This document shows, piece by piece, positions 3,532 through 32,338 of a stretch of 64,000 nucleotides of DNA. Each line of letters begins with the position of its first letter. Position 1 is the first letter of the stretch. Origin of the DNA: Corynebacterium incognita (GTDB lineage Bacteria > Actinomycetota > Actinomycetes > Mycobacteriales > Mycobacteriaceae); NCBI RefSeq assembly GCF_014217255.1, contig NZ_CP059404.1:1736001-1800000 (forward strand), written 5' to 3'. The translations under genes and the position numbers were made by a program. Below the pieces are notes generated by a model that saw nothing but the letters and a program-made list of their open reading frames with translations, was not told the origin of the DNA and made no database searches.

Positions 3532-4716
3532 ATGTCTGACACCACTGCTTCCACGAACACCGACAAGAAGACCGAACAGCCGGAGGTCCGCAAGGGCCTC
3601 TACGGCGTGGTCGTGGACGAGACCGCGATTTCCAAGGTGGTCCCGGAAACCAACTCCCTGACCTACCGCGGCTACCCCGTCCAGGAGCTCGCCCGCTACA
3701 CCTCCTTCGAAGAGGTGGCCTACCTGCTGTGGAACGGCCGCCTGCCTAAGCAAGAATCTCTCATCCGCTTCTCCGCTCGCGAAAAGGCGCTGCGCCACCT
3801 GGACCGTCACCTCATTGACCTGATTATGTCCATGCCGCTGTCCTGCCACCCCATGGACGTGCTGCGCACCGCGGTGTCCTTCATCGGCGCCCAGGACCCG
3901 GAGGAGTACACCAAGGACTCCGAGCACATCCGCCGCACCGCGCTGGAGCTCATGGCCAAGATCCCCACCATCATCGCACTGGACATCCGCCGCCGTCGCG
4001 GCGAAGGCTACATCGAGCCCTCGCGCAAGAAGGGATTCGCGGAGAACTTCCTGTGGATGGTCTTCGGCGAGGAGGAAGGCTCCCCGGCGCTCAACCGCGC
4101 TGACGTGGAGGCCTTTGACAAGTCCCTTATCCTCTATGCCGAGCACTCCTTCAACGCTTCGACCTTCACCGGACGCGTGATTACCTCTACGATGTCTGAC
4201 ACCTACTCCGCCATCGTGGGCGCCATCGGCGCACTCAAGGGCCCGCTGCACGGCGGCGCCAACGAGGCCGTCATGAAGAACTTCCTGGAGATTGACGATC
4301 CCGCGAAGGTGGAGGAGTGGACCAAGAACAAGTTGGCCAACAAGGAACTGGTCATGGGCTTCGGTCACCGCGTGTACAAGAAGGGGGACTCGCGCGTGCC
4401 GACCATGGAGGCCGCCTTCAAGGAGCTGGCCGCCAACCACGGGCAGGAAAAGTGGGTGGAGATGTACGACATCATGGCCCAGACCATGTACGACAACACC
4501 TCGATCAATATCCGCCCGAACCTGGACTTCCCAGCCGGCCCGGCGTACCACATTCTGGGCTTTGACATCGAGTTCTTCACGCCTATCTTCGTCATGGCGC
4601 GCATCACCGGCTGGACCGCGCACATCGTTGAACAGAACGAAAACAACTCGCTCATCCGCCCGCTGTCCGCGTACGTCGGCGAGGAACAGCGCACCGTTCC
4701 GCCGAAGTCTTTCTAG
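3532..4716 (+). CDS. prpC: 2-methylcitrate synthase PrpC
   Basis: 394 residues of the citrate synthase family. It condenses propionyl-CoA with oxaloacetate. Catalytic motifs are present: LHGGANEAV, GFGHRVYKKGD, and the final Asp region (RPNLDFPAGPAYHILG). A clean AAGGAGAAAG ribosome site precedes ATG 3532, 41 bp after prpB. Length and operon position favour 2-methylcitrate synthase over the housekeeping citrate synthase GltA, which is longer and lies elsewhere in corynebacteria. Confidence 0.92.
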   Translation: MSDTTASTNTDKKTEQPEVRKGLYGVVVDETAISKVVPETNSLTYRGYPVQELARYTSFEEVAYLLWNGRLPKQESLIRFSAREKALRHLDRHLIDLIMSMPLSCHPMDVLRTAVSFIGAQDPEEYTKDSEHIRRTALELMAKIPTIIALDIRRRRGEGYIEPSRKKGFAENFLWMVFGEEEGSPALNRADVEAFDKSLILYAEHSFNASTFTGRVITSTMSDTYSAIVGAIGALKGPLHGGANEAVMKNFLEIDDPAKVEEWTKNKLANKELVMGFGHRVYKKGDSRVPTMEAAFKELAANHGQEKWVEMYDIMAQTMYDNTSINIRPNLDFPAGPAYHILGFDIEFFTPIFVMARITGWTAHIVEQNENNSLIRPLSAYVGEEQRTVPPKSF

Positions 4717-4801
4717 CCCCGGGCAACGGCGGGGGAGTGCGCGTGGAAAATATATCCATAATAAGTTTCTCTGTGACGCGAAATAACCTAATATTTCTCA
4801 C

Positions 4802-5239
4802 ATGAACAGGGATTCTGCGGGAGTGGAACAGTGGACCACCGGGCGCGAATTGGGCGCCGCCCGGTGGTGGCGCGTCCCCTGGGTCGAGGTGCTGTTTCTC
4901 CTTCTCGGCATCATCCGTATCGCGCTGCATTTTAGGATTCCCCACTGGCAAGAGGATGGCCTCTTTGACGGTGTCATCCTCGTCTTTGTTGGTGCCATTG
5001 CGCTGACCATGTCGGTGATGCTCCTCAACGTCTCCGTGAACACACTTATTTTTGATCTCGCCCACGTGGTTGGCGGGCTGGCCATCGCTACTTTCGTCAT
5101 CTGGTATCCTTTCGGCGAGATCCCCGTTGGGGTCATGCTGTTTTTGTGGGTGAGCTTCGCCATGATTTTCGCCGGCATGTCCAGTGCGGTCCGACGCGTG
5201 GGTGCACGGATGTTCCCCACGTGGCACGACGAGTACTAA
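4802..5239 (+). CDS. small four-helix membrane protein, function unknown
   Basis: 145 residues. After a polar N-terminus there are about four hydrophobic segments (roughly residues 28–44, 55–76, 80–100 and 106–126), ending in a short basic cytoplasmic-type tail. I recognise no domain. It lies 85 bp after prpC in the same direction, behind an AT-rich stretch (4749–4797) that could carry its own promoter, so membership of the prp operon is doubtful. It could equally be a neighbour of pyc. Confidence 0.65.
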   Translation: MNRDSAGVEQWTTGRELGAARWWRVPWVEVLFLLLGIIRIALHFRIPHWQEDGLFDGVILVFVGAIALTMSVMLLNVSVNTLIFDLAHVVGGLAIATFVIWYPFGEIPVGVMLFLWVSFAMIFAGMSSAVRRVGARMFPTWHDEY

Positions 5240-5396
5240 ATCAGCGAGTCAATCGCGGCACTCCAGGCGGGAGCGCTACCCGCGAGGGGTGAGAATTGTT
5301 CTACTTTTCGGGGCATAAGTCACGTCGTTGTACTAAATTAGATCAATGTCATAGCAAAGTGAGTGAAGTCACCAATGCGAAAGGACCACCCTTAAC
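5240..5396 (+). promoter_or_regulatory. pyc upstream region
   Basis: 157 bp before pyc. A small GC hairpin (GCGGG 5267–5271, CCCGC 5279–5283) may end the preceding transcript. The A/T-rich part near 5330–5345 is the likely promoter. An AGTGA-N6-TCACC element (5358–5373) resembles a CRP/GlxR site but differs at both outer positions. An AAAGGA ribosome site precedes the GTG start. Confidence 0.35.
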
Positions 5397-8300
5397 GTGC
5401 CAGCTCAACAGCTTCCTTCCTTTAGAAAAATTCTCGTTGCAAACCGCGGCGAAATCGCAGTGCGCGCGTTCCGCGCCGCTTTTGAGACCGGCGCGAAGAC
5501 CGTTGCCGTGTACCCGCGCGAGGACCGCAATTCCTTCCACCGCTCCTTCGCGGACGAGGCCGTACGAATCGGGGAAACCGGCTCGCCGGTAAAGGCCTAC
5601 CTGGACATTGATGAGATGATCCGCGCCGCCAAGAAGTCCGGCGCGGACGCCATTTACCCCGGTTATGGTTTCCTCTCCGAGCGCACCGAACTCGCGCAAG
5701 CCTGTGCCGACAACGGCATCACCTTTATCGGCCCCGCCCCGTCCACCCTGGACCTGACCGGCGACAAGGCCGCCGCCGTCGAAGCCGCGGAGGCCGCGGG
5801 CCTGCCTACCCTCCAAGACTCCGAGCCCTCCACGGACGTCGATAAGCTCGCAGAGTACGCGAAGGACTTCACCTTCCCAGTCTTCGTCAAGGCCGTGGCA
5901 GGCGGCGGTGGTCGCGGCATGCGCTTCGTCGAGAGGCCCGAAGACCTCAAGGAAAAGGCCGCCGAGGCCTCCCGCGAGGCCGAGGCCGCGTTCGGCGACG
6001 GCCACGTTTACCTCGAGACCGCGGTGATTCGCCCGCAACACATCGAGGTGCAGATCCTGGCGGACTCCCAGGGGAACGTCATGCACCTGTTTGAGCGTGA
6101 CTGCTCCCTGCAGCGCCGCCACCAGAAGGTCGTGGAAATTGCCCCTGCGCCGTTCCTGGACCCAGAGCTACGCGACCGCATCTGTGCCGACGCCGTCAAG
6201 TTCTGCGAGCACATTAAGTACCAGGGTGCGGGAACCGTGGAATTCCTCGTCGATGAAAACGGAAACCACGTTTTCATCGAGATGAACCCGCGCGTGCAGG
6301 TGGAGCACACCGTGACCGAAGAGGTTACCGGCGTGGACATCGTGAAGTCCCAGATGTATATCGCCGCCGGCGCCTCCCTGGAGGACCTAGACCTGCGTCA
6401 GGAAGACATCAAGCTCACCGGCTCCGCGCTGCAGTGCCGCATCACCACGGAGGACCCCAACAACGGTTTCCGCCCGGACACCGGCACCCTGACCGCATAC
6501 CGTTCGCCGGGCGGCGCGGGTGTGCGTCTCGACGGCGCGGCGTCTGTCGGCGCCGAGATTTCCCCCAACTTCGACTCCCTGCTGGTCAAGATGACCTGTC
6601 GCGGCGTGGACTTCAAGACCGCCGTGGCGCGTGCACAGCGTGCCCTCAACGAATTCACCGTCGCGGGCGTGTCGACGAACATCGGCTTCCTGCGCGCACT
6701 CCTGCGCGAGCCTGACTTCGTCAACAAGCGCGTGGACACCGGTTTCATCAACGAGCACCCGGACCTACTCAAGGCACCACCGGCCGTGGACGAGTCCGGC
6801 CGCATCATCGACTTCATCGCGGACGTGACGGTGAACAAGCCGAACGGCGAGCGCCCCACAAAGCTGCGCCCCTTTGACAAGATCCCAGCGTTCGACAAGT
6901 CCGCGCCGCTCCCGCGCGGTTCCCGCGACGACCTGCTGGAGCTGGGGCCGAAGGCTTGGGCGGAAAAGATCCGCCAGCAGCCTGCGCTCGGCGTGACGGA
7001 TACGACCTTCCGCGACGCGCACCAGTCCCTGCTGGCTACCCGCGTGCGCGGCACCGACCTCGTCACCGCCGCGGAGGCCGTGGCGCGGATGACGCCGAAC
7101 CTGTTCTCCGTGGAGGCCTGGGGCGGCGCGACCTACGACGTCGCCATGCGCTTCCTCAAGGAAGACCCCTGGGTGCGCCTGGATCTGCTGCGCGAAGCCA
7201 TGCCGAACCAGAACATCCAGATGCTGCTGCGCGGCCGTAACACCGTGGGCTATACCCCGTACCCGGATGATGTCTGTCGCGCCTTCGTCCAGGAGGCCGC
7301 CAAGTCTGGTGTGGATATCTTCCGTATCTTCGACGCGCTCAACGACGTCTCCCAGATGCGCCCGGCTATCGACGCCGTGCTGGAGACCGGCACCACCGTC
7401 GTTGAGGTGGCCATGGCGTACTCCGGCGACATGTGCTCGCCGAAGGAAAACCTCTACACGCTGGATTACTACCTCAAGCTGGCCGAAGAGATCGTCAACT
7501 CCGGTGCACACGTGCTGGCCATCAAGGACATGGCCGGCCTGCTGCGGCCGGAGTCCGCGTCCAAGCTTGTGATGGCGCTGCGCAGGGAATTCGACCTGCC
7601 CATCCACGTGCACACCCACGACACCGCAGGCGGCCAGTTGGCCACCTACTACGCGGCGGCACTGTCCGGCGCGGACGTCGTGGATGGCGCCTCCGCGCCG
7701 CTGGCGGGCACCACCTCCCAGCCGTCGCTGTCCGCCATCGTGGCGGCGTTTAGCAACTCCTCGCGCGACACTGGCTTGGACCTGCAAGCCATTTCCGACT
7801 TGGAGCCGTACTGGGAGGCCGTGCGCCAGCTCTACCGCCCGTTCGAAAACGGCATCCCGGGCCCGACCGGGCGCGTGTACAAGCATGAAATCCCCGGCGG
7901 CCAGCTGTCCAACCTGCGCGCCCAGGCCGTGGCGCTGGGCCTGGAGGATCGCTTCGAGATCATCGAAGACAACTACGCTTCCGTCAACGAGATGCTCGGC
8001 CGCCCCACCAAGGTCACCCCGTCCTCCAAGGTGGTCGGCGATCTGGCCCTGCACCTCGTAGGTGCGGGCGTGGACCCGGCCGACTTTGCGGAGAACCCGC
8101 AGAAGTACGACATCCCGGACTCCGTCATTGCCTTCCTGCGCGGCGAGCTGGGTACCCCTCCGGGCGGCTGGCCGGAGCTGCGTGACCGTGTGCTGTCCTC
8201 CCGCACCCCGGGTGAGGTCACGATCAAGGACGTGCCGGAAGAGGAAAAGCCGCACCTGACCTCCGAGAACTCCACCGAGCGCCGCGAGGCTCTCAACCGC

Positions 8301-20306: not shown

Positions 20307-21188
20307 GTTCGAAGATAATAGGCTGTCACACTGCGGCAATCCAGCGTGAAACGCCAACAATTTAGGTGAGCAAAACAAAAACCCTGCTCAACCCCCGCAA
20401 AAAATATGAGGGAAACCTCGCATTCCGGGGGTGAGCCGTGGGGCTAACGCCGTCAGGCATCGGCAAGCGCCCCCGCCCGCCCGTCCTCCCCACTTTCCTC
20501 GCATGTGCCCTCCCGTGCCGGCGGTTTTCGGGCAAACGCGTCAAAGTCGGGGCTGGTGACGTGTCTTGAACTACTTAGAGCCTGTTTCACCGGAGGAAAC
20601 CTTGAGGCCACAGTTCTTTGTCGTCTATTCGCACCGTGTTGAAAGCGCGCTCATTTAGAAAATGGCAGTAGGGCCTTTTGAGTCCCTGTTTTAAGTAGTG
20701 GCGGATAAAAAAGGGGGGTGCTATCCATTCCGTTCCAGGCCGCGATCTCAATGTGGGTACGGATCTCTGTGAGCACAAACTCGACTGTGGGTTCCACATC
20801 CGTGTCGCACGACATCACGCTAACTGCATCAGGTGCGGTCTCTCCCGTTGTCGTCTTGACGAGTGGTGCGTCGAACGTTCTCCTAGTCTAGGAAGACATC
20901 TACGCTCTCGAGACGATTCGGTGAGTTCTGATTTAGTGTCGGCATCGGGCCCTACCTGGCAATAAAAATCCTCGCCATTCCCACGATTACAGCAGGAAGG
21001 CGAGGAGCAATGAACTTTGTGATAGCTCTTAGTGCAAGAGGAGCGCAAATGTGAAAGCTCGCCCCGAACTTGCTCCTCATGGTTGAATTTCAACCCTGCC
21101 CCCGCAGTTGCATCCGATATTAGCTCAGCTAGGTCGCTCAATGCGAGTGTGTCATGAGGCTCTGAGACCTCGGCGTAAGCTTGAGAGC
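20307..21188. other. 882-bp gap between accD1 and birA; possible decayed gene
   Basis: Lower GC than its surroundings and without an intact gene I can defend. On the minus strand two adjoining frames look protein-like: codons 21120–20960 (SDATAGAGLKFNHEEQV, in one frame) and 20878–20650 (TFDAPLVKTTTGETAP, then DVEPTVEFVLTEI and PLFYPPLLKTG, in another), with a TAG and a frame change between them. This could be one broken gene. The region also holds the divergent accD1 and birA promoters and a minus-strand terminator-like hairpin at 20969–21006. Confidence 0.4.
20969..21006 (-). terminator. minus-strand intrinsic terminator in the accD1–birA gap
   Basis: TCCTCGCC (20969–20976) pairs with GGCGAGGA (20999–21006). 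Read on the minus strand the stem is followed at once by TTTTTATTG. It implies a short minus-strand transcript starting near the birA 5' end, with no complete gene to account for it. Confidence 0.6.
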
Positions 21189-22067
21189 ATGAACTCTTCT
21201 GCAAGCACTAGCTCCCAGACCGCTGACGCCATCGACGTCGAAGCCTTGACATCTGCCCTCGTTGAGACCGGCCTGCTAGCCGACGTCCGCTACGTGCCGG
21301 AAACCGGCTCTACTAATACTGACTTGCTCAGTGAGGAGAAGGTAGCCGACCGCACCGTGCTGCTCACCAATTCGCAGACCGCCGGCAAGGGACGACTCGG
21401 CCGCACCTGGGTGGCGCCGGAAGGCAGCCAGCTCACCTTCTCGCTGTTGGTGGTCCCGCCCAAGGCGGACATTTTGGGCCTGCTCCCGCTGGTCGGCGGA
21501 CTAGCCGTCACCGATGCGATTCCGGGCACTGTCCTGAAGTGGCCTAACGACGTCCTCATCGACGGCAAGAAGCTATGCGGCATACTCGCTGAGGCCGGCC
21601 CGCTGGGCGGCGCCTTTAAATCCGGCAAGAGTGCCGAATACAAGTCCGGCAAGGCCGAGGGTGAGTTCAAGTCCGGCAAGGCGGAAGGAGAGTTGGCGGG
21701 GGAGGCGCACCCGGACCTGCGGGCGGTGTTGGGCATGGGCATCAACGTCGGCATGACCCGCGAGCAGCTGCCCGTCGAGCACGCCACGTCGCTAGCACTC
21801 GAGGGCAAGGAGACTAACCGCACCCAGCTCGCTATCGACGTTCTCACCGCCCTCGCCAAGCGCCTAGACCAGTGGGAGTCCGGGGATCCGCAGCTCATGG
21901 CGGACTACCGCGCGGTGTGCTCGTCCATCGGGCAGGAGGTCCGCCTCGAGGCCCCGACGGGCGATGTCGTGGGAACCGTCGACGCCGTGGCCGACGACGG
22001 CCGCATCCAGGTTGCCGGGCAGCTGTACTCCGCCGGCGACGTCACGCACTTGCGCCCAGCCAAGTAG
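21189..22067 (+). CDS. birA: biotin–protein ligase BirA (monofunctional)
   Basis: 292 residues. Catalytic motifs are GKGRLGRTW (biotinyl-AMP loop) and KWPNDVLIDGKKLCGIL; the C-terminal SH3-like domain is present. There is no N-terminal DNA-binding domain, so it is a group I ligase and not a repressor. It attaches biotin to Pyc, AccBC and the pxp-linked BCCP. Odd feature: a tandem insertion (21618–21695) of three units of 8, 9 and 9 residues, the last two KSGKAEGEF and KSGKAEGEL, sits right after the catalytic KLCGILAEAG segment. ATG 21189 chosen; the frame opens further upstream without a ribosome site. Confidence 0.9.
   Translation: MNSSASTSSQTADAIDVEALTSALVETGLLADVRYVPETGSTNTDLLSEEKVADRTVLLTNSQTAGKGRLGRTWVAPEGSQLTFSLLVVPPKADILGLLPLVGGLAVTDAIPGTVLKWPNDVLIDGKKLCGILAEAGPLGGAFKSGKSAEYKSGKAEGEFKSGKAEGELAGEAHPDLRAVLGMGINVGMTREQLPVEHATSLALEGKETNRTQLAIDVLTALAKRLDQWESGDPQLMADYRAVCSSIGQEVRLEAPTGDVVGTVDAVADDGRIQVAGQLYSAGDVTHLRPAK
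21618..21695 (+). repeat. in-frame tandem repeat inside birA
   Basis: Three consecutive units of 24, 27 and 27 bp starting AAATCCGGCAAG, AAGTCCGGCAAG, AAGTCCGGCAAG. Units 2 and 3 differ mostly at third codon positions, so the duplication is not recent and the protein sequence has been kept. Confidence 0.85.
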
Positions 22068-25066: not shown

Positions 25067-25096
25067 TAGACAAAATTGTTGAACAAACCCTATGAT
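25067..25096 (+). promoter_or_regulatory. promoter and GntR-type operator of the transporter gene
   Basis: -35 TAGACA (25067–25072), 18-bp spacer, -10 TATGAT (25091–25096). The palindrome TTGTTGAACAA (25076–25086) lies inside the spacer. It fits the FadR-subfamily GntR consensus TNGTNNNACNA and is identical to the core in front of pxpA at 32280–32290. Confidence 0.7.
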
Positions 25097-25141: not shown

Positions 25142-26401
25142 ATGGTGAGTGCACAGACGAATCGCGACAACGTGGCCGACGGCCACACCACCTTCTCGCC
25201 GGCAAATACGGTGAAGACCAAGGTGGGCATTTCCGCCATGGCTGGCGCCATGTTCCTCATGGCCACCTCCGCCATCGGCCCGGGCTTTTTGACCCAGACG
25301 GCCGTCTTTACTGAGAAGATGGGCGCGGCCTTCGCGTTCGCCATCGTGGTGTCCATCCTCGTGGACATCGCTATCCAGCTCAACGTCTGGCGCGTATTGG
25401 GACTTACCGGAATGCGCGCCAACGAGCTGGGCAATGAAGTATTCAAGGGTCTTGGCTGGTTCATGGCCGTGCTCGTGTTTATTGGCGGCGCCATCTTTAA
25501 CATCGGCAACATCGCCGGCTCCGGCCTGGGCATGAACGCCATGTTTGGCATCGACGCTCGCTGGGGCGGCATCATCGCCGCCACGATCGCGGCACTCATC
25601 TTCACCTCGAAGAAGGCAGGCCTGGCCCTGGACCGCCTGGTCGCCCTGCTCGGCGCCATCATGATCCTGCTCATGCTGTACGTGGCCATCGTGTCCAACC
25701 CGCCGGTTGGCGACGCGTTTGTGAATACCTTCGCACCGGGTGAAATCGACTTCTTCGTCATCACCACGCTCATCGGTGGCTCCGTGGGCGGCTACATCAC
25801 CTTCGCCGGTGCCCATCGCCTCATCGACGAAGGCATTACCGGCCGTGCGAACGTCGGCTACATCACCGGCACGTCCGTGTCCGGCATCATCGTCACCGGC
25901 ATCATGCGCGTGCTGCTCTTCCTGGCGGTTCTCGGCGTGGTGGCTACCGGCGTGGCGTTGGACAAGAACAACATTGCCGCCGACGTATTCTTTCAAGCTG
26001 CTGGTGAGGTCGGCCTGCGCGCCTTCGGCATGGTGCTCTTTGCCGCGGGTCTGTCCTCCATCATCGGTGCGTCGTACACCTCGATTAGCTTCATCACCAC
26101 CAAGGAGACCAACCCGAAGGTCACCGCGGGCCTGACCATCGGCCTCATCGTGGTGTGCACCCTCGTATTCGCGTTCGTGGGCCAGGCCCCGCAGAAGCTG
26201 CTCATCTTCGCCGGCGCCTTCAACGGCCTTATCCTCCCCATCGGTGTGGCTGTGGTGATGTGGGTGACTGTCAAGCGCCAGGATCTCCTGGACGGCTACA
26301 AGTACCCGAAGTGGCTCATCGTCATCGGCTTCCTGGCCCTCATCCTCTGCCTCTTCATGGGCATCAAGGCCTTCTCCGGCATCACCGCCCTCTGGGCTTA
26401 A
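25142..26401 (+). CDS. NRAMP-family transporter (YcsG-like)
   Basis: 419 residues with about 11 membrane helices. The NRAMP fold is shown by the first-helix region SAIGPGFLTQTAVF and IGNIAGSGLGMNAM. The canonical metal-binding pair DPGN (helix 1) and MPH (helix 6) is not present; helix 1 has GPGF. It is therefore nearer to the YcsG-type branch than to Mn/Fe transporters, and the substrate is open. B. subtilis ycsG sits with the pxp/kip genes, as here. Start ATG 25142 was chosen over the earlier in-frame codon at 25076, which lies in the operator. Confidence 0.82.
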   Translation: MVSAQTNRDNVADGHTTFSPANTVKTKVGISAMAGAMFLMATSAIGPGFLTQTAVFTEKMGAAFAFAIVVSILVDIAIQLNVWRVLGLTGMRANELGNEVFKGLGWFMAVLVFIGGAIFNIGNIAGSGLGMNAMFGIDARWGGIIAATIAALIFTSKKAGLALDRLVALLGAIMILLMLYVAIVSNPPVGDAFVNTFAPGEIDFFVITTLIGGSVGGYITFAGAHRLIDEGITGRANVGYITGTSVSGIIVTGIMRVLLFLAVLGVVATGVALDKNNIAADVFFQAAGEVGLRAFGMVLFAAGLSSIIGASYTSISFITTKETNPKVTAGLTIGLIVVCTLVFAFVGQAPQKLLIFAGAFNGLILPIGVAVVMWVTVKRQDLLDGYKYPKWLIVIGFLALILCLFMGIKAFSGITALWA

Positions 26402-26587: not shown

Positions 26588-27382
26588 ATGTCCCTCGCTA
26601 TTCCTGGTCCCGAGACCACGCCTGCCGACGCCCGCGGGTACTACCGCGAGCACTCCGTGGTGACCACGTCTGGAGTGGCGCGCGGTTGTACGCAGGCAAA
26701 CCTCATCGCGCTGCCCAAGGAATACGCCTTTGACTTCCTGCTGTTCGCGCAGCGCAACCCGAAGCCGTGCCCCGTCATCGGGGTCCTGGAGCCGGGGCAG
26801 TACGCCTCCGAGCTCCTGCCGGGCGGCGATATTCGCATGGACGTACCGGGCTACCGCGTCTTCCGCGACGGCGAGCTCGTCGACGAGCCCGCGGGCGTGC
26901 GCGAGGTATGGGACGAGAACATGGTGGGCTTCCTCATCGGCTGCTCCTTCACGTTCGAGACCCCGTTGTTGGAGGCCGGGATTGCGCTCGCGCACCTGGA
27001 CCAGGGCGTCAACGTGCCCATGTACAAGACCACCATTCCGACCGCACCCGCGGGTGTGTTCAGTGGGCCGACTGTGGTGTCCATGCGTCCGATCCGCGCG
27101 GATCGCGTGGCTGATGCCGTGCGGATTTCCTCGCGCTACCCGGCCGTACACGGCGCGCCACTGCACGTCGGCGACCCGGAGGCCATTGGCATTACGGACC
27201 TGTCCCGGCCCGATTTCGGTGACGCCGTGGAGATCCCCGAGGGCACTATCCCAGTGTTCTGGGCCTGCGGGGTGACCCCGCAGGCAGTGGTGATGAATTC
27301 CCGGCCGTCCCTGGCGCTTACTCACGCGCCGGGCAAGATGCTCATCACCGACGCCCGCGACGCCGAGTACCAGGTGCCCTAG
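26588..27382 (+). CDS. DUF1445 protein (YcsI / D-glutamate cyclase family)
   Basis: 264 residues. Conserved blocks [46 protein letters not shown] and [13 protein letters not shown] identify the DUF1445 family. A DUF1445 domain is found in mammalian D-glutamate cyclase, which turns D-glutamate into 5-oxo-D-proline, and the B. subtilis member ycsI lies next to pxp genes. A role in forming or racemising 5-oxoproline is therefore reasonable here but unproven; the older label 'putative hydro-lyase' has no firm basis. GAAGGAG is 7 nt before ATG 26588. Confidence 0.87.
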
Positions 27383-27398: not shown

Positions 27399-28028
27399 CT
27401 AGCGCGGCAGGACGTCGCAGATGTGTTCGCAGGTCTCCGCCAACGAGCGGCGTAGTTCCTCGGCGGCGGTGGCGCCCTCGCCGTGGGCGATGAGCTCGCT
27501 CAAGTGCGCGTTGAACGTGGCGTAGTTCGAGTGGAATGTCGGTTCTTCCTTGAGCACTGCCAGGAAGCATAGACGCATCTGGGCCAGGAGGTTGTCCATG
27601 GTCTTGTCAAGGAAAGGCGAGCCCATGCCCGCGACGATAAGCCGGTGGAAGTCTTGGTTCACCGAGCCGACCGCGCGCAGCGAATCGGAGTCGTCGGCCT
27701 GCGCGAGTTCCCGGGCACGCTCGGTGGTGGCGGTGAGCTTGTCGACGTCGAGATGCTCGCCCCACAAGATCGCCGCGGGCTCCAGGGCCGCGCGGGCTGC
27801 ATAGAGATCGCGGGCGGACGCACGGTCCGGGGTCGCGATGAATACCCCGCGGTTGGGGATGCGCTCTACTAGATTGTGGGCGGCCAACATGGCAAAGGCT
27901 TCGCGCAGGGTGTTGCGGGAGACGTCGTAGCGCTGCGCGATGTGGACCTCTTGGAGCTGGTCCCCCGGGGCGAAGCGGGCATCGGAGATGTCGGTGCGCA
28001 GCTGGGCTGCCAGGTGTTGGGCGCGCAT
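27399..28028 (-). CDS. GntR-family (FadR subfamily) regulator of the pxp cluster
   Basis: 209 residues. N-terminal winged helix (ISDARFAPGDQLQEVHIAQRYDVSRNTLREAFAML) and an all-helical FCD ligand domain with metal-binding-type His residues (NQDFHRLIVAGMG; SNYATFNAHLSELIAHG). It lies inside the pxp cluster. The cluster's two outer promoters share TTGTTGAACAA, which fits the FadR-type consensus, so repression of both is the simplest reading. The effector is probably 5-oxoproline or glutamate (inference). ATG 28028 has only a weak ribosome site. Confidence 0.87.
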   Translation of the reverse strand: MRAQHLAAQLRTDISDARFAPGDQLQEVHIAQRYDVSRNTLREAFAMLAAHNLVERIPNRGVFIATPDRASARDLYAARAALEPAAILWGEHLDVDKLTATTERARELAQADDSDSLRAVGSVNQDFHRLIVAGMGSPFLDKTMDNLLAQMRLCFLAVLKEEPTFHSNYATFNAHLSELIAHGEGATAAEELRRSLAETCEHICDVLPR

Positions 28029-28055: not shown

Positions 28056-28092
28056 GCCCGCGGGGCGAGTTCGTGGAGAACTTCCCGCGGGC
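28056..28092 (-). terminator. terminator of the pxp operon
   Basis: GCCCGCGGG (28056–28064) pairs perfectly with CCCGCGGGC (28084–28092); the loop has a further 5-bp stem (AGTTC/GAACT). On the minus strand it follows the carboxylase gene by 42 bp and ends in TTTGTC. It also precedes the GntR gene, which may have its own transcript. Confidence 0.7.
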
Positions 28093-28134: not shown

Positions 28135-29889
28135 TTAGTCGATCGTGGCGATGACGGTCTCCGAGGTGAGGCGGTCGCCAGCCTTGGCGGAGATCGAAAT
28201 GGTGCCGGCCTTCGGGGCCTTGATGGCGGATTCCATCTTCATGGCCTCCACGGTGGCGATCTTGTCGCCCTCGGCCACCTCGGCGCCGTCCTCGACGTTC
28301 CATTCCACGAGGTTGCCCTCGAACGGGGAGGTCACGGCGTTGTCATCGGCCGCGGACGGGCCCGCGGTGGAGGGAGCAGCGGACGACGGCGCGTTGGTCT
28401 GCGCGGAAAACAGCTCCACTGGCAGGCCGATGTTGACGATCTTGCCGTCGATTTCCACGGCGACGTTGCGGCGCTGGGTATAGATGGCGTCCACCTTCTC
28501 CGAGCGGATGGAGGCCGACGGGCGGTAGTTCTGGTCCACCCAGTCGGTGTAAATCCCCAGGGTGTCGCCGGTCAGTGCCGGGTCATCCATCATGTCGCGG
28601 TGGAAGGGCAGCACGGTGCGTACGCCGGTGACGGTGAACTCCTTCAGCGCCTGCTTCGCGCGGCGCAGCGCCACCTCGCGGCTAGGGCCCCACACGATGA
28701 GCTTGGCGATGAGCGAGTCGTAGTACGGCGGAACGATGGAGCCCGAGCGCACGGCGGCGTCCACGCGGATGCCTGGGCCGGTCGGCGGCTCAAACGAGGT
28801 CACGGTGCCGGGGCAGGGCGCGAAGCCGTTGAGGATGTCCTCAGCGTTGATGCGGAACTCGAAGGCATGGCCCTCAGCCTTGGGATCCTCAGTGATGGAC
28901 AGCGGCTGGCCCGCGGCGATGCGGAACTGCTCGGCGATGATGTCCACGCCGGAGACCACCTCGGTGACTGGGTGCTCGACCTGGACGCGGGTGTTAACCT
29001 CCAGGAAGGAGATGGTGCCGTCCTCGGAGACGATGTATTCCACGGTGCCGGCGCCGGTGTACCCCACCTTCTTGCAGATAGAACGCGCGCCCTCGATGAT
29101 GCCCTCGCGCTGGGCGTCGGTGAGGTTCGGCGCCGGGGCCTCCTCGATGAGCTTCTGGAAGCGGCGCTGGGTGGAGCAGTCACGGGTGCCCACCACCACG
29201 ACGTTGCCGTGGGTATCGGCCAAGACCTGGGCCTCCACGTGACGCGGGTGGGTGAGGAACTTCTCGACGTAGCACTCGGCGCGGCCGAAGGCTTCCATGG
29301 CCTCGCGGCCCGCGGAATTGAACGCGCCCTCGATGTCTTCCAGCTTGTCCACGACTTTCAGGCCGCGACCGCCGCCGCCGTAGGCCGCCTTAATGGCGAT
29401 CGGCAAGCCATGCTCTTCAGCGAAGCGGCGCGCCTCCTGCCAGTCGTCGATGGGGTCGGAGGTTCCCGGTGCCAGCGGGGCGCCGACCTCGGTGGCCACG
29501 CGACGCGCGGCGATCTTGTCGCCCAGCAGCTCGATAGCTTCCGGGGAGGGGCCGATCCAGCGCAGGCCCGCCGCGGTGACCATCTGGGCGAACTCGGAGT
29601 TCTCGGAGAGGAAGCCGTAACCCGGGTGCACGGCGTCGGCCCCGGCGCGCACGGCGATGTCCAGCAGCGCGGGGACGTTCATGTACGTGTCACCCGCGGT
29701 GTTGCCTGGCAGGGCATAGGCCTCGTCGGCGACCTGGGTATGCAACGCGCCGGCGTCGGCCTCGGAGTACACGGCCACAGACCGGATGCCGAGGTCGCGG
29801 GCGACGCGGGCGATGCGCACTGCGATCTCGCCGCGGTTGGCGATGAGCACGGTGGAAATGGTGGAAGCTGTGGAAGCTGTGGTGGTCAT
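28135..29889 (-). CDS. pxp-linked biotin carboxylase/BCCP protein
   Basis: 584 residues. Complete biotin carboxylase domain (about 10–455): [52 protein letters not shown], and [14 protein letters not shown] with the catalytic Glu/Arg. A Ser/Ala/Pro linker leads to a biotinyl domain with VEAMKMESA, acceptor Lys 551. Its ATG directly follows the TAA of the PxpB–PxpC gene (TAAATG), so the two are translated together. It is a third alpha-type subunit besides Pyc and AccBC, with no acyl-CoA carboxyltransferase gene nearby; the adjacent PxpB–PxpC, a relative of the urea carboxylase transferase part, is the natural partner. Substrate not established. Confidence 0.9.
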   Translation of the reverse strand: MTTTASTASTISTVLIANRGEIAVRIARVARDLGIRSVAVYSEADAGALHTQVADEAYALPGNTAGDTYMNVPALLDIAVRAGADAVHPGYGFLSENSEFAQMVTAAGLRWIGPSPEAIELLGDKIAARRVATEVGAPLAPGTSDPIDDWQEARRFAEEHGLPIAIKAAYGGGGRGLKVVDKLEDIEGAFNSAGREAMEAFGRAECYVEKFLTHPRHVEAQVLADTHGNVVVVGTRDCSTQRRFQKLIEEAPAPNLTDAQREGIIEGARSICKKVGYTGAGTVEYIVSEDGTISFLEVNTRVQVEHPVTEVVSGVDIIAEQFRIAAGQPLSITEDPKAEGHAFEFRINAEDILNGFAPCPGTVTSFEPPTGPGIRVDAAVRSGSIVPPYYDSLIAKLIVWGPSREVALRRAKQALKEFTVTGVRTVLPFHRDMMDDPALTGDTLGIYTDWVDQNYRPSASIRSEKVDAIYTQRRNVAVEIDGKIVNIGLPVELFSAQTNAPSSAAPSTAGPSAADDNAVTSPFEGNLVEWNVEDGAEVAEGDKIATVEAMKMESAIKAPKAGTISISAKAGDRLTSETVIATID

Positions 29890-31467
29890 TTATTTGTCTC
29901 CTTGTTCGGGCTGGGCGGGTGTGGCGGGGGTGAGGATCTCAAAGCGGACGCGGGCGCCCGGCGGGAGTTGGGCGGCGACGTCGATGTCCTCTTCGATGAC
30001 GGTGGCGATGACGGGGTAACCACCGGTGACGGCGTGATCGCGCAGGAAGACCACCGGCTTGCCGTTGGGCGGCACCTGGACGGAACCGGCGACCATGCCC
30101 TCGGAAGGCAGCTCGCCGTCGTGGGTGCGCTCGATGGTGGCGTCGCCCTCCACGCGGAGGCCGACGCGGTTGGAGGAGCTAGACACTGTCCACGTGGTCT
30201 CGGTAAACGCCGTGAGGTCGTGGCCGAACCAGTCGTCGCGCGGGCCGGGCACGCAGCGCAGTACGGCCTCGGTTGTGCCCGGGCGGCCGGTCACGCGCAG
30301 CGGGTTGGTCAGTTGGGCGTCGGTGAGCTTTTCTGCCAGCGGGAGCACGCCGATGATGTCACCGGATTTGACCGGGTCGGGGCCCAGGCCGGAGAGCACG
30401 TCGGTGGAGGAGGAGCCCAGTTCAGAGTCAGCGACGATGCCGCCGCGCACGGCCAGGTAGTTGCGGAAGCCGAGCTTGGCCGGGGCCACCGTGAGTGTGC
30501 TGCCCGCGGTGACCAGGATGGGCTTGGCGAGGGACACCGGGTAGTCATTGAGACGTACCGCGGTGAGTGCGCCGGTGACGGCCACCACGGTGTCGGTGAG
30601 TGCTCGCAGGCTCATGCCACCGACGTTCTCCAGGACGGTCGCGCCACGCGGGTTACCCACAGCGATATTCGCCGTGGCGGCCGAGGCTTGGTCCGCGGCA
30701 CCCGACGGGGTGACACCCAGGTCGCCGCGGCCGGGGCGGCCGAGGTCTTGGAAGAGGGTGAGGAGGCCGGCGTCGAGAAGCTCCAGGCGTGGCAGGCGCG
30801 GCGGGGACTTCTTGATGCGATCGGAATCGGCGGTGAGCTCCGGCAGCTCGTCTACGGCGAGGTAGCGCACGCGGTCGCCGGGTTGTACCAACGCTGGCGG
30901 CTCGGTGTGAGACTCCCACATCGGGGTGTTAGTGGTGCCGATGAGCTGCCAGCCACCCGGGGACACGCGTGGGTACACCGCGGAGAAATCGCCCGCGATG
31001 CCCACGGCGCCCGCCGGGACCGCGGTGCGCGGGGTGGCGCGGCGCGGCACCTGCTTGGCGGCCTTCGGGTCAGAGGGCGCGCAGTAAGTAAAGCCGGGCG
31101 CAAAGCCGCCGAAAGCGGCGGTCCATTCGGTGGAGGTGTGCCAGTCAATGAGCGCCTCGCGGGACATGCCGAGCACGTCCGCGGCCTCCTCAAGGTCCTC
31201 GCCGTCGTAGCGCACGGCGATTTCCACGGTGCGGGGATCACGCAGGGTGGCCGCGGAAGGGGAGAAGTCCTGCAGTTTCTCCGCCGCCTCCTCGGCAGCG
31301 AGTGGGGAGCCGAAGGTGAGCAGCACGGTTTTGGCGGCCGCGATGCAGTCCACCTGGTACTCCAGCGGGTGGGCGGTCATTTCCGCGTGCCAGTCCATCA
31401 CTTGGGCCAAGGAATCCAGGTCTACGAGCAGGGCGCGGGTGCCTACTTTGTGAATGATTGCGCTCAT
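29890..31467 (-). CDS. pxpBC: fused 5-oxoprolinase subunits PxpB–PxpC (KipI–KipA)
   Basis: 525 residues. The N-terminal half (about 1–210) is PxpB/KipI, with GGFAPGFTYCAPSDP, VPRRATPRTAVPAGAVGIAG and YPRVSPGGWQLIGTT. The C-terminal half (about 228–515) is PxpC/KipA, with LLTLFQDLGRPGRGDLGV, SGAADQASAATANI and VPPNGKPVVFLRDH. In most bacteria these are two genes; here they are one chain. PxpABC is the ATP-dependent prokaryotic 5-oxoprolinase, giving L-glutamate. PxpB/PxpC are also homologous to the carboxyltransferase part of urea carboxylase. The start overlaps the pxpA stop (ATGA). Confidence 0.92.
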   Translation of the reverse strand: MSAIIHKVGTRALLVDLDSLAQVMDWHAEMTAHPLEYQVDCIAAAKTVLLTFGSPLAAEEAAEKLQDFSPSAATLRDPRTVEIAVRYDGEDLEEAADVLGMSREALIDWHTSTEWTAAFGGFAPGFTYCAPSDPKAAKQVPRRATPRTAVPAGAVGIAGDFSAVYPRVSPGGWQLIGTTNTPMWESHTEPPALVQPGDRVRYLAVDELPELTADSDRIKKSPPRLPRLELLDAGLLTLFQDLGRPGRGDLGVTPSGAADQASAATANIAVGNPRGATVLENVGGMSLRALTDTVVAVTGALTAVRLNDYPVSLAKPILVTAGSTLTVAPAKLGFRNYLAVRGGIVADSELGSSSTDVLSGLGPDPVKSGDIIGVLPLAEKLTDAQLTNPLRVTGRPGTTEAVLRCVPGPRDDWFGHDLTAFTETTWTVSSSSNRVGLRVEGDATIERTHDGELPSEGMVAGSVQVPPNGKPVVFLRDHAVTGGYPVIATVIEEDIDVAAQLPPGARVRFEILTPATPAQPEQGDK

Positions 31468-32222
31468 AGGAAGCTCCGAATCTCGATGCCCTGGTCACCG
31501 AGCTGCTTGACGACGCCGCGCAGGAGTTCCACCGCGCCAGGGGAGTCGCCGTGGGTACAGACGGACTCGGCGCGCACGTCGAGCACGGAGCCATCGACGG
31601 CAGTGATCGAGCCCTTGGTGGCTACCTGGAGCACGCGCGCGGCTACCGCCTCCGGGTCATGCATGACGGCGTTGTCCTGGGTGCGGGACACGAGTGTGCC
31701 GTCGGGATTGTAGTTGCGGTCAGAGAAGGCTTCGCGGATAACTCGTAGGCCGGCCTTCTCGGCGAGGTCGCAGGCCACGGCGCCGGGCAGGAGCATGAGC
31801 GGCAGATCGCCGAAGGCTTTCACGCCGTCGACTACGGCCTGTGCCTGGGCCTCGTGGTGCACGATGGCGTTGTAGAGCGCGCCGTGCGGCTTGACGTAGG
31901 AGACTGCGGTGCCGTTCGCGCGGCACAGGGCGTCAAGGGCGCCGATTTGGTACAGGGTCTCGTCCGCGAGCTCGGCGGGGGAGTACTCCATGAAGCGGCG
32001 GCCGAATCCGGCGATGTCGTTGTAGCCGATGTGGGCGCCGACGACGACGCCGCGCTCAGCGGCGGCCTTGACGGTCTGGGCGATGGAGTGGGCGTCACCG
32101 GCGTGGAAGCCGCAGGCCACGTTGGCGCTGGAGACCATGTCCAGCATGGCGGCGTCGTCCGCCACGGGATTGCCCGCGGTGGTTTCGCCGAGATCGGCGT
32201 TGAGATCAATGGTCACTGTCAT
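31464..32222 (-). CDS. pxpA: 5-oxoprolinase subunit PxpA (LamB/YcsF family)
   Basis: 252 residues. The family signature is complete: TIDLNADLGE at the N-terminus, ANVACGFHAGDAHSI, GAHIGYNDIAGFGRRFME, VKPHGALYN, and EAFSDRNYNPDGTLVSR. It is a TIM-barrel-like, probably metal-dependent hydrolase subunit that works with PxpB/PxpC. First gene of a three-gene operon pxpA–pxpBC–carboxylase. ATG 32222 precedes the conserved start by one residue; AAGGGG lies 14 nt upstream. The further upstream in-frame region overlaps the operator and promoter. Confidence 0.93.
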   Translation of the reverse strand: MTVTIDLNADLGETTAGNPVADDAAMLDMVSSANVACGFHAGDAHSIAQTVKAAAERGVVVGAHIGYNDIAGFGRRFMEYSPAELADETLYQIGALDALCRANGTAVSYVKPHGALYNAIVHHEAQAQAVVDGVKAFGDLPLMLLPGAVACDLAEKAGLRVIREAFSDRNYNPDGTLVSRTQDNAVMHDPEAVAARVLQVATKGSITAVDGSVLDVRAESVCTHGDSPGAVELLRGVVKQLGDQGIEIRSFL

Positions 32223-32275: not shown

Positions 32276-32338
32276 AAGATTGTTGAACAATCTTGAATGG
32301 GATGAGGATAGTGTAGACCCAAACCCGCAAAATGTGAA
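32276..32338 (-). promoter_or_regulatory. promoter and GntR-type operator of pxpA
   Basis: Minus strand: -35 TTCACA (32338–32333), 17-bp spacer, -10 TACACT (32315–32310). About 9 nt past the expected start (near 32303) comes a perfect 19-bp palindrome, AAGATTGTTGAACAATCTT (32276–32294). Its core TTGTTGAACAA equals that in front of the transporter gene. The position suits a roadblock repressor. Confidence 0.75.

Follow-up and report, generated by a model that had tools for sequence, protein, structure and literature searches.

A 5-oxoproline operon of Corynebacterium incognita with a likely biotin-dependent 5-oxoprolinase

Biotin carboxylase (BC) charges the biotin of a biotin carboxyl carrier protein (BCCP) with CO2 from bicarbonate at the cost of ATP, and urea carboxylase transfers CO2 to an amide. 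Here we analyze an operon of Corynebacterium incognita in which a BC–BCCP gene stands behind the genes of the prokaryotic 5-oxoprolinase PxpABC, within a stretch of 64,000 nucleotides (contig NZ_CP059404.1, positions 1,736,001 to 1,800,000) that is called the window below. In Corynebacterium glutamicum, according to passages of the describing study, pxpTABC is required for growth on 5-oxoproline, with PxpT, a relative of the NRAMP proteins, as the 5-oxoproline transporter, and the regulator PxpR acts via the site agattgttcaacaatct, which was examined by both mutation and deletion; PxpR binds 5-oxoproline, but no binding was seen with any of four L-amino acids (PMC13274462). For another lactam-opening enzyme, the caprolactamase CapAB, the relevant passages state that the ATP-driven reaction needs bicarbonate, with a carboxylated lactam proposed as one option (PMC8453981), and carboxyl activation of a lactam has therefore been proposed before.

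The co-occurrence of BC with pxp genes is already visible in print, where it is explained otherwise. As far as the pertinent sections of these papers go, the acc genes of a six-gene Staphylococcus aureus operon with pxpB, pxpC, pxpA, accB and accC are counted under fatty-acid synthesis (PMC11315280), the extra BC and BCCP of Lactiplantibacillus pentosus are attributed to lipid synthesis (PMC12427679), and PA0493 and PA0494 of Pseudomonas aeruginosa are of unknown function (PMC6249292). We found no explanation of the role of BC in pxp operons in the open-licence literature. For the window, we think it probable that the operon serves 5-oxoproline utilization and encodes a 5-oxoprolinase with a built-in biotin carboxylase, in which BC–BCCP would supply activated CO2 to PxpBC while PxpA opens the ring; judged from its sequence, this 5-oxoprolinase is likely biotin-dependent.

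Operon architecture, its forms in the genus and its operator

The original prediction, made from the sequence alone, described pxpA, a fused pxpB–pxpC and an intact BC–BCCP gene as lying head to tail, and this is confirmed by the Pfam domains and by both junctions: on the minus strand, an ATGA overlap joins the pxpA stop to the pxpB::pxpC start, and in a TAAATG junction the pxpB::pxpC stop abuts the BC::BCCP start. Homologs of PxpA, PxpB and PxpC are thus encoded together, with all expected Pfam domains above their cut-offs. PxpA additionally reaches the NCBIfam subfamily models NF003814 (334 bits, with a cut-off of 226) and NF003816, and stays below the cut-offs of the three NCBIfam PxpA equivalog models. 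PxpB::PxpC reaches TIGR00724, a 5-oxoprolinase/urea amidolyase model, and its model matches include Thermus TTHA0988, Mycobacterium smegmatis MSMEG_0435-0436, Escherichia coli YbgJK and urea carboxylase/amidolyase. Its carboxyltransferase fold is of the urea-carboxylase type, and in the alignment most of the invariant core of PxpC is common to urea carboxylase, in BC-linked and BC-free classes alike, in line with the kinship of PxpB and PxpC to the carboxyltransferase of urea carboxylase that the original prediction took as known.

The third protein carries an intact biotin carboxylase and a biotinylatable carrier, as seen from its domains and from its alignment with mycobacterial AccA3 across residues 7–583, in which the EAMKME biotin site and long BC motifs are kept; we take these to have their usual catalytic roles. 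The same genome also encodes an AccBC that is 55% identical to BC::BCCP and a pyruvate-carboxylase-like protein, and genes for both kinds of protein are found in the window. BC::BCCP groups with the AccBC of its own genome, that is, with the alpha-subunit sequence family, while the pxp-linked copies of the genus form a separate clade. In each of the 76 genomes with a member of this clade, one or more other BC-type matches reach E <= 1e-100, and the pxp-linked BC–BCCP is therefore an extra copy.

Across the genus, pxpA occurs in 105 of the 151 genomes surveyed, at 109 places. Searching these genomes with BC::BCCP returned 76 matches with identities of 63% or more, followed by a gap down to 56% and then by the housekeeping type; the match list reaches to about 656 bits and E <= 1e-100, at which short or broken copies of the clade would be missed. 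Nearly all members of the clade (74/76) lie within 1.4–4.6 kb of pxpA, the other two being on separate contigs, and among the matches listed none falls in the 46 genomes without pxpA (table 76/29/0/46, Fisher p = 4e-19, with related species non-independent). The co-occurrence with pxp genes that the original prediction pointed to is thereby borne out. Its feared counter-case, a BC–BCCP placed among ordinary acyl-CoA carboxylases and linked to pxp genes at random, applies in part: descent from the acyl-CoA carboxylase alpha family is seen, but the genus copies have a clade of their own and their linkage is non-random.

Forty genus regions were fetched for closer comparison, covering 19 of the 76 BC-type genomes besides the window and 19 of the 29 pxpA genomes without a clade BC. 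The order pxpA, pxpB::pxpC, BC::BCCP is kept in 19/19 BC-linked regions, with pxpB and pxpC in one frame in 18 of them, while 18 BC-free regions have NRAMP, pxpA, pxpB and pxpC as separate genes. Distances of PxpBC and BC correlate with r = 0.94 across 23 loci, a value reached by none of 2000 permutations, and with r = 0.86 within the genus. Because the gene order is common to the 19 BC-linked regions and these distances correlate, the arrangement is more than chance; the co-divergence by itself shows joint inheritance, not joint function. No genome holds both operon forms, judged by its pxpA places. The genus thus contains two forms of one operon, the BC-free type replacing the BC type elsewhere in the genus.

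Several individual loci depart from these patterns. At L147 (7692–10055), one of the 19 BC-linked regions, pxpBC is cut short and the adjoining BC–BCCP frame is open throughout. The remaining three of the forty regions are L134, L128 and L165. L134 has a fused PxpBC (5397–6938) followed by a 383-residue BC remnant (4249–5397) that showed no carrier domain, seemingly a BC-type operon that is losing its biotin part. L128 and L165, both second pxpA places, represent a third type of pxp locus; in L165 a BC precedes pxpB and pxpC, which are separate genes, and L128 has no BC. Two pxpA places occur in four genomes: G024, where they are two pieces of one gene, and G028, G030 and G105, each with a lower-scoring second place.

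As far as the operator sequence goes, the tie of the operon to 5-oxoproline is firm. The operator predicted upstream of pxpA matches the tested C. glutamicum site in full (Table 1), and its center lies ~63 bp before pxpA, compared with 65 bp before pxpT in C. glutamicum. When the whole genome was scanned with up to two mismatches allowed, it was the sole site, and a reversed control pattern gave none. A weaker copy precedes the NRAMP-family gene of the window, where the chance expectation for sites with up to three mismatches is 0.02. Operators of the PxpR kind, with up to four mismatches and near the 5' end of pxpA or of the transporter gene, were found at 11/19 BC-linked and 15/18 BC-free genus loci, with distances measured to open-frame ends rather than to proven starts, and nine further sites of similar quality lie elsewhere among the 44 loci scanned. 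The site at L143 sits between regulator and transporter. Regulator gene and operator go together at the BC-linked loci (n = 19), where ten have both, eight have neither and one has only the operator (p = 1e-4). The kind of operator and its pairing with the regulator therefore connect the operon that contains BC with 5-oxoproline. Beyond the operator, scans for promoters, terminators and palindromes yielded nothing firm.

Table 1. Features of the window discussed in the text (window coordinates)
Feature	Coordinates	Strand	Basis and remarks
PxpA	31464..32222	minus	LamB_YcsF (PF03746), 315 bits; ring-opening subunit of prokaryotic 5-oxoprolinase
Fused PxpB::PxpC	29890..31467	minus	Pfam CT_C_D (172 bits), then CT_A_B (270 bits); carboxyltransferase-like
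BC::BCCP	28135..29889	minus	Pfam Biotin_carb_N, CPSase_L_D2, Biotin_carb_C, Biotin_lipoyl
Predicted PxpR operator AGATTGTTCAACAATCT	32277..32293	minus	Identical at 17/17 bases to the C. glutamicum site that was mutated and tested
Weaker operator copy	25073..25089	plus	3 mismatches; center ~61 bp before ATG of NRAMP-family gene (25142)
GntR/FCD regulator, likely PxpR	27399..28028	minus	Pfam GntR and FCD; ~106 bp beyond BC–BCCP, same strand
Possible promoter TTCACA-17-TACACT	32310..32338	minus	Directly upstream of operator; consensus scan of 5.2 kb, 2 hits where 0.3 are expected; weak
NRAMP-family transporter, PxpT/YcsG homolog	25142..26401	plus	Pfam Nramp, 73 bits; NCBIfam Nramp model below cut-off
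D-glutamate cyclase family gene	26588..27382	plus	PF07286, 221 bits; convergent with operon
Biotin protein ligase gene	21108..22067	plus	BPL_LplA_LipB, BPL_C; ~6 kb from BC–BCCP gene
Inverted repeat	28056..28092		Perfect, 9 bp, 19-nt spacer; between BC–BCCP stop and GntR gene; perhaps terminator or processing site

Biotin carboxylase beside pxp genes outside the genus

Plasmids carry a BC, or BC and BCCP, beside pxp genes in Bradyrhizobium, Klebsiella, Lactiplantibacillus, Sinorhizobium, Sulfitobacter, Rhizobium, Arthrobacter and the archaeon Natronorubrum, making 8 of 11 loci that were hand-picked from 60 listed of 601 records (one of them, L045, was judged from the survey of genome loci); the plasmid pxp loci of Thermus, Deinococcus and E. 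coli have no BC alongside. On genomes, a BC was nearby at 13 of the best 80 of 591 relatives' loci, a figure that is no rate, as these relatives were found via an alignment headed by a Lactiplantibacillus PxpA. In an even draw of Actinomycetota it was present at 5 of the 19 places fetched, out of 29 pxpA places, and one more place ends at a contig edge after a BCCP.

On a PxpC tree with 126 rows, 11 switches of the BC label are required. On a BC tree of 58 rows, the pxp-linked BCs fall into several lineages, some of them beside local housekeeping BCs, with 8 changes of which at least 5 are forced. Both are quick trees with open forks, and the BC tree includes a long-branch fragment (L181) and a doubtful pair (L078/L190). 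Given the label changes on the two trees, the link between BC and pxp genes was most likely made more than once, and a single origin finds no support in either tree.

Some of these loci have features of their own. L036 holds a complete pxp operon of the BC type, transporter and D-glutamate cyclase genes included, and a second BC–BCCP near a DUF1989 gene; the BC–BCCP of the operon is matched with 99% identity or more on 98 plasmid records, and Klebsiella accounts for 95 of all 214 matching records. The Bradyrhizobium operon (L035) encodes two carrier-like proteins, one before the BC and one between pxpC and pxpA (2146–2586 and 5579–6004). In Faecalispora (locus L059, genome G154) no Biotin_carb_C protein other than the pxp-linked BC was found in the genome, and this BC may also have to serve other carboxylases. 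At four actinomycetotal places (L191, L195, L196 and L200) there is a pxpA, and no pxpB or pxpC was found within ~6 kb.

A proposed mechanism, and what speaks against it

In the mechanism that we propose, PxpR would keep the operon off until 5-oxoproline arrives, as its operator suggests. Drawing on ATP and bicarbonate, BC would then carboxylate the biotin carried by its own BCCP arm. The arm would swing to the urea-carboxylase-like PxpBC, which could hand the CO2 to 5-oxoproline, at either the nitrogen or the oxygen of the lactam. PxpA would open the lactam so activated, and the resulting carbamate would lose its CO2 and release glutamate. Overall, the reaction would be the one that ordinary PxpABC carries out, with one ATP spent per ring opened and CO2 acting as activator only; with an equal energy balance, both operon forms could therefore replace each other, as they apparently have in the genus. 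Ordinary PxpABC, in genomes without a biotin carboxylase, would have to activate the ring otherwise.

A number of results weigh against biotin dependence, most of all as a general property of PxpABC. Among 36 genomes with pxpA, 15 (G281, G297, G300, G309, G315, G316, G317, G324, G342, G344, G351, G357, G359, G380 and G381) lack any Biotin_carb_C protein, and pxpB and pxpC lie near pxpA in all 15. The 36 comprise 33 pxpA-positive Bacillota, with the center genome of the draw left out (13 without BC), and the hand-picked G380–G382 (2/3 without BC); no completeness values are given for these genomes and drafts may be among them, though G300 and G316 are nearly one contig each. BC presence was scored by PF02785, since PF02786 also matches carbamoyl-phosphate synthase. 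In the even draw of Bacillota (without the center genome, and with some regions truncated at contig edges) none of 35 places has a BC nearby, and the majority of the genome-sampled pxp loci outside the genus are without an adjoining BC. The fused protein misses the PxpB equivalog TIGR00370 (119.9 against 145.55 bits) and the PxpC equivalog NF045499 (182 against 500 bits), which would make it a relative outside the narrow equivalogs; this is a matter of annotation thresholds and no test of function. A residue switch between BC-linked and BC-free proteins was sought and found no support: one PxpC column (103 representatives) and six PxpB columns (119) differ, all mildly, and with so few and minor differences the sequences give no hint that the mechanism has changed. 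Lastly, the structure PDB 9yx5, in which M. smegmatis MSMEG_0435-0436 (PxpC–PxpB) is bound to an AccA3-containing long-chain acyl-CoA carboxylase complex, has a lipid-making carboxylase as the partner complex; no paper on it was found in the open-licence literature.

The genomes without a BC contradict a universal biotin dependence of PxpABC through a housekeeping BC acting in trans, and PxpABC in general is therefore not biotin-dependent. In such genomes its core reaction can hardly need biotin, and the BC type would be a variant rather than the rule. It is accordingly as a variant that the originally predicted biotin-dependent, split urea-carboxylase-type 5-oxoprolinase stands, by virtue of the pxpA-tied clade, the operator, the repeated recruitment and 9yx5; as a general rule it fails, given that most loci outside the genus are without BC and that 15/36 genomes have none.

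The alternative that survives best, though we regard it as unlikely, keeps the same biotin machine and changes its substrate: induced by 5-oxoproline, the enzyme would open a related lactam or amide, such as 5-oxo-D-proline from the neighboring D-glutamate cyclase. The gene for this cyclase is present in 12/19 BC-type and 0/18 BC-free genus regions (p = 4e-5, for related species and 14-kb regions), an association that hints at salvage of 5-oxo-D-proline or D-glutamate, and a repeated recruitment of BC suits a need that ordinary PxpABC leaves unmet. However, the cyclase also occurs at many BC-free loci outside the genus, and the BC-type and BC-free operons of the genus interchange and share their transporter and kind of operator. 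The binding reported in passages on C. glutamicum PxpR, which do not mention the D form, of 5-oxoproline and none of the four L-amino acids likewise speaks against this alternative (PMC13274462).

It is less probable again that BC–BCCP is a spare acyl-CoA carboxylase alpha subunit, lipid-making or anaplerotic, which merely rides in the pxp operon while PxpABC works without it. Its membership of the AccBC family by sequence would fit, as would the pxpABC genomes without any BC, the Faecalispora genome whose pxp-linked BC is the only one found, and the counting of the S. aureus acc genes under fatty-acid synthesis in the section concerned (PMC11315280). Yet no AccD-type carboxyltransferase is among the six neighboring proteins scanned by Pfam (AccD was not searched genome-wide), and BC::BCCP reaches no cut-off among the 25 NCBIfam families listed, acetyl-CoA carboxylase BC models included. 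The linkage to pxpA, with no clade BC outside pxpA genomes among the matches listed, and the recruitment of several BC lineages into pxp operons are also hard to square with a passenger; the co-divergence with PxpBC points the same way, though mere co-inheritance gives the same. A direct phosphorylation of 5-oxoproline by PxpBC, the assumption made for ordinary PxpABC, with BC–BCCP only a regulator or accessory feeder of CO2, seems very improbable: BC-linked and BC-free PxpBC hardly differ in their conserved residues, but the claim of a PxpBC ATPase in the relevant passage of PMC8453981 cites a teaching article, and repeated recruitment of a mere accessory is hardly expected.

A 5-oxoprolinase with its own biotin carboxylase could be part of a wider pattern, to which we give about even chances: 5-oxoprolinases would form two classes, an ordinary one and a biotin-dependent one that uses biotin-carried CO2 as a recycled lactam activator, the second having been built repeatedly by the capture of local BC and BCCP genes. 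Some actinobacteria may borrow the housekeeping BC–BCCP instead, as 9yx5 hints, and PxpBC would be a lactam carboxyltransferase at heart. In the literature surveyed, the use of ATP by PxpABC is only assumed, and the BC and BCCP genes in pxp operons of S. aureus, rhizobia, lactobacilli, a haloarchaeon and this genus are either assigned to fatty-acid synthesis or given no explanation. Should the biotin reading be right, a large set of genes named 'acetyl-CoA carboxylase' would carry the wrong name, and the catalytic activation of a lactam by CO2 would give biotin a new role. The PxpR system of C. glutamicum offers a ready test bed.

Comparison with known systems

The pxpTABC/PxpR system of C. 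glutamicum, with its relatives in Bacillus subtilis and E. coli, shares with the window the same PxpA, PxpB and PxpC domains, an NRAMP transporter, a GntR-type regulator and the exact operator. Unlike the C. glutamicum PxpABC, the window has a fused PxpB–PxpC with a BC–BCCP gene behind it in the operon, and its transporter gene belongs to a separate, convergent unit together with the D-glutamate cyclase gene. The S. aureus operon and PA0492–PA0496 of P. aeruginosa, in which PA0492, PA0495 and PA0496 are presumably the pxp genes, combine pxp with BC and BCCP as here, but with BC and BCCP as separate genes. CapAB differs from the enzyme of the window in belonging to an unrelated protein family and in having no biotin carboxylase.

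Urea carboxylase (Kluyveromyces lactis, PDB 3va7) and urea amidolyase (5i8i) have the same BC, BCCP and PxpC-like and PxpB-like carboxyltransferase parts. In contrast to these enzymes, the version in the window is split into two proteins, has PxpB before PxpC and PxpA in the place of the hydrolase, and would be expected to act on a lactam. 9yx5 resembles the window in bringing a PxpC–PxpB pair together with a BC–BCCP protein, AccA3, in one structure; there, AccA3 is a subunit of an acyl-CoA carboxylase, whereas the BC–BCCP of the window is a further copy encoded within the pxp operon.

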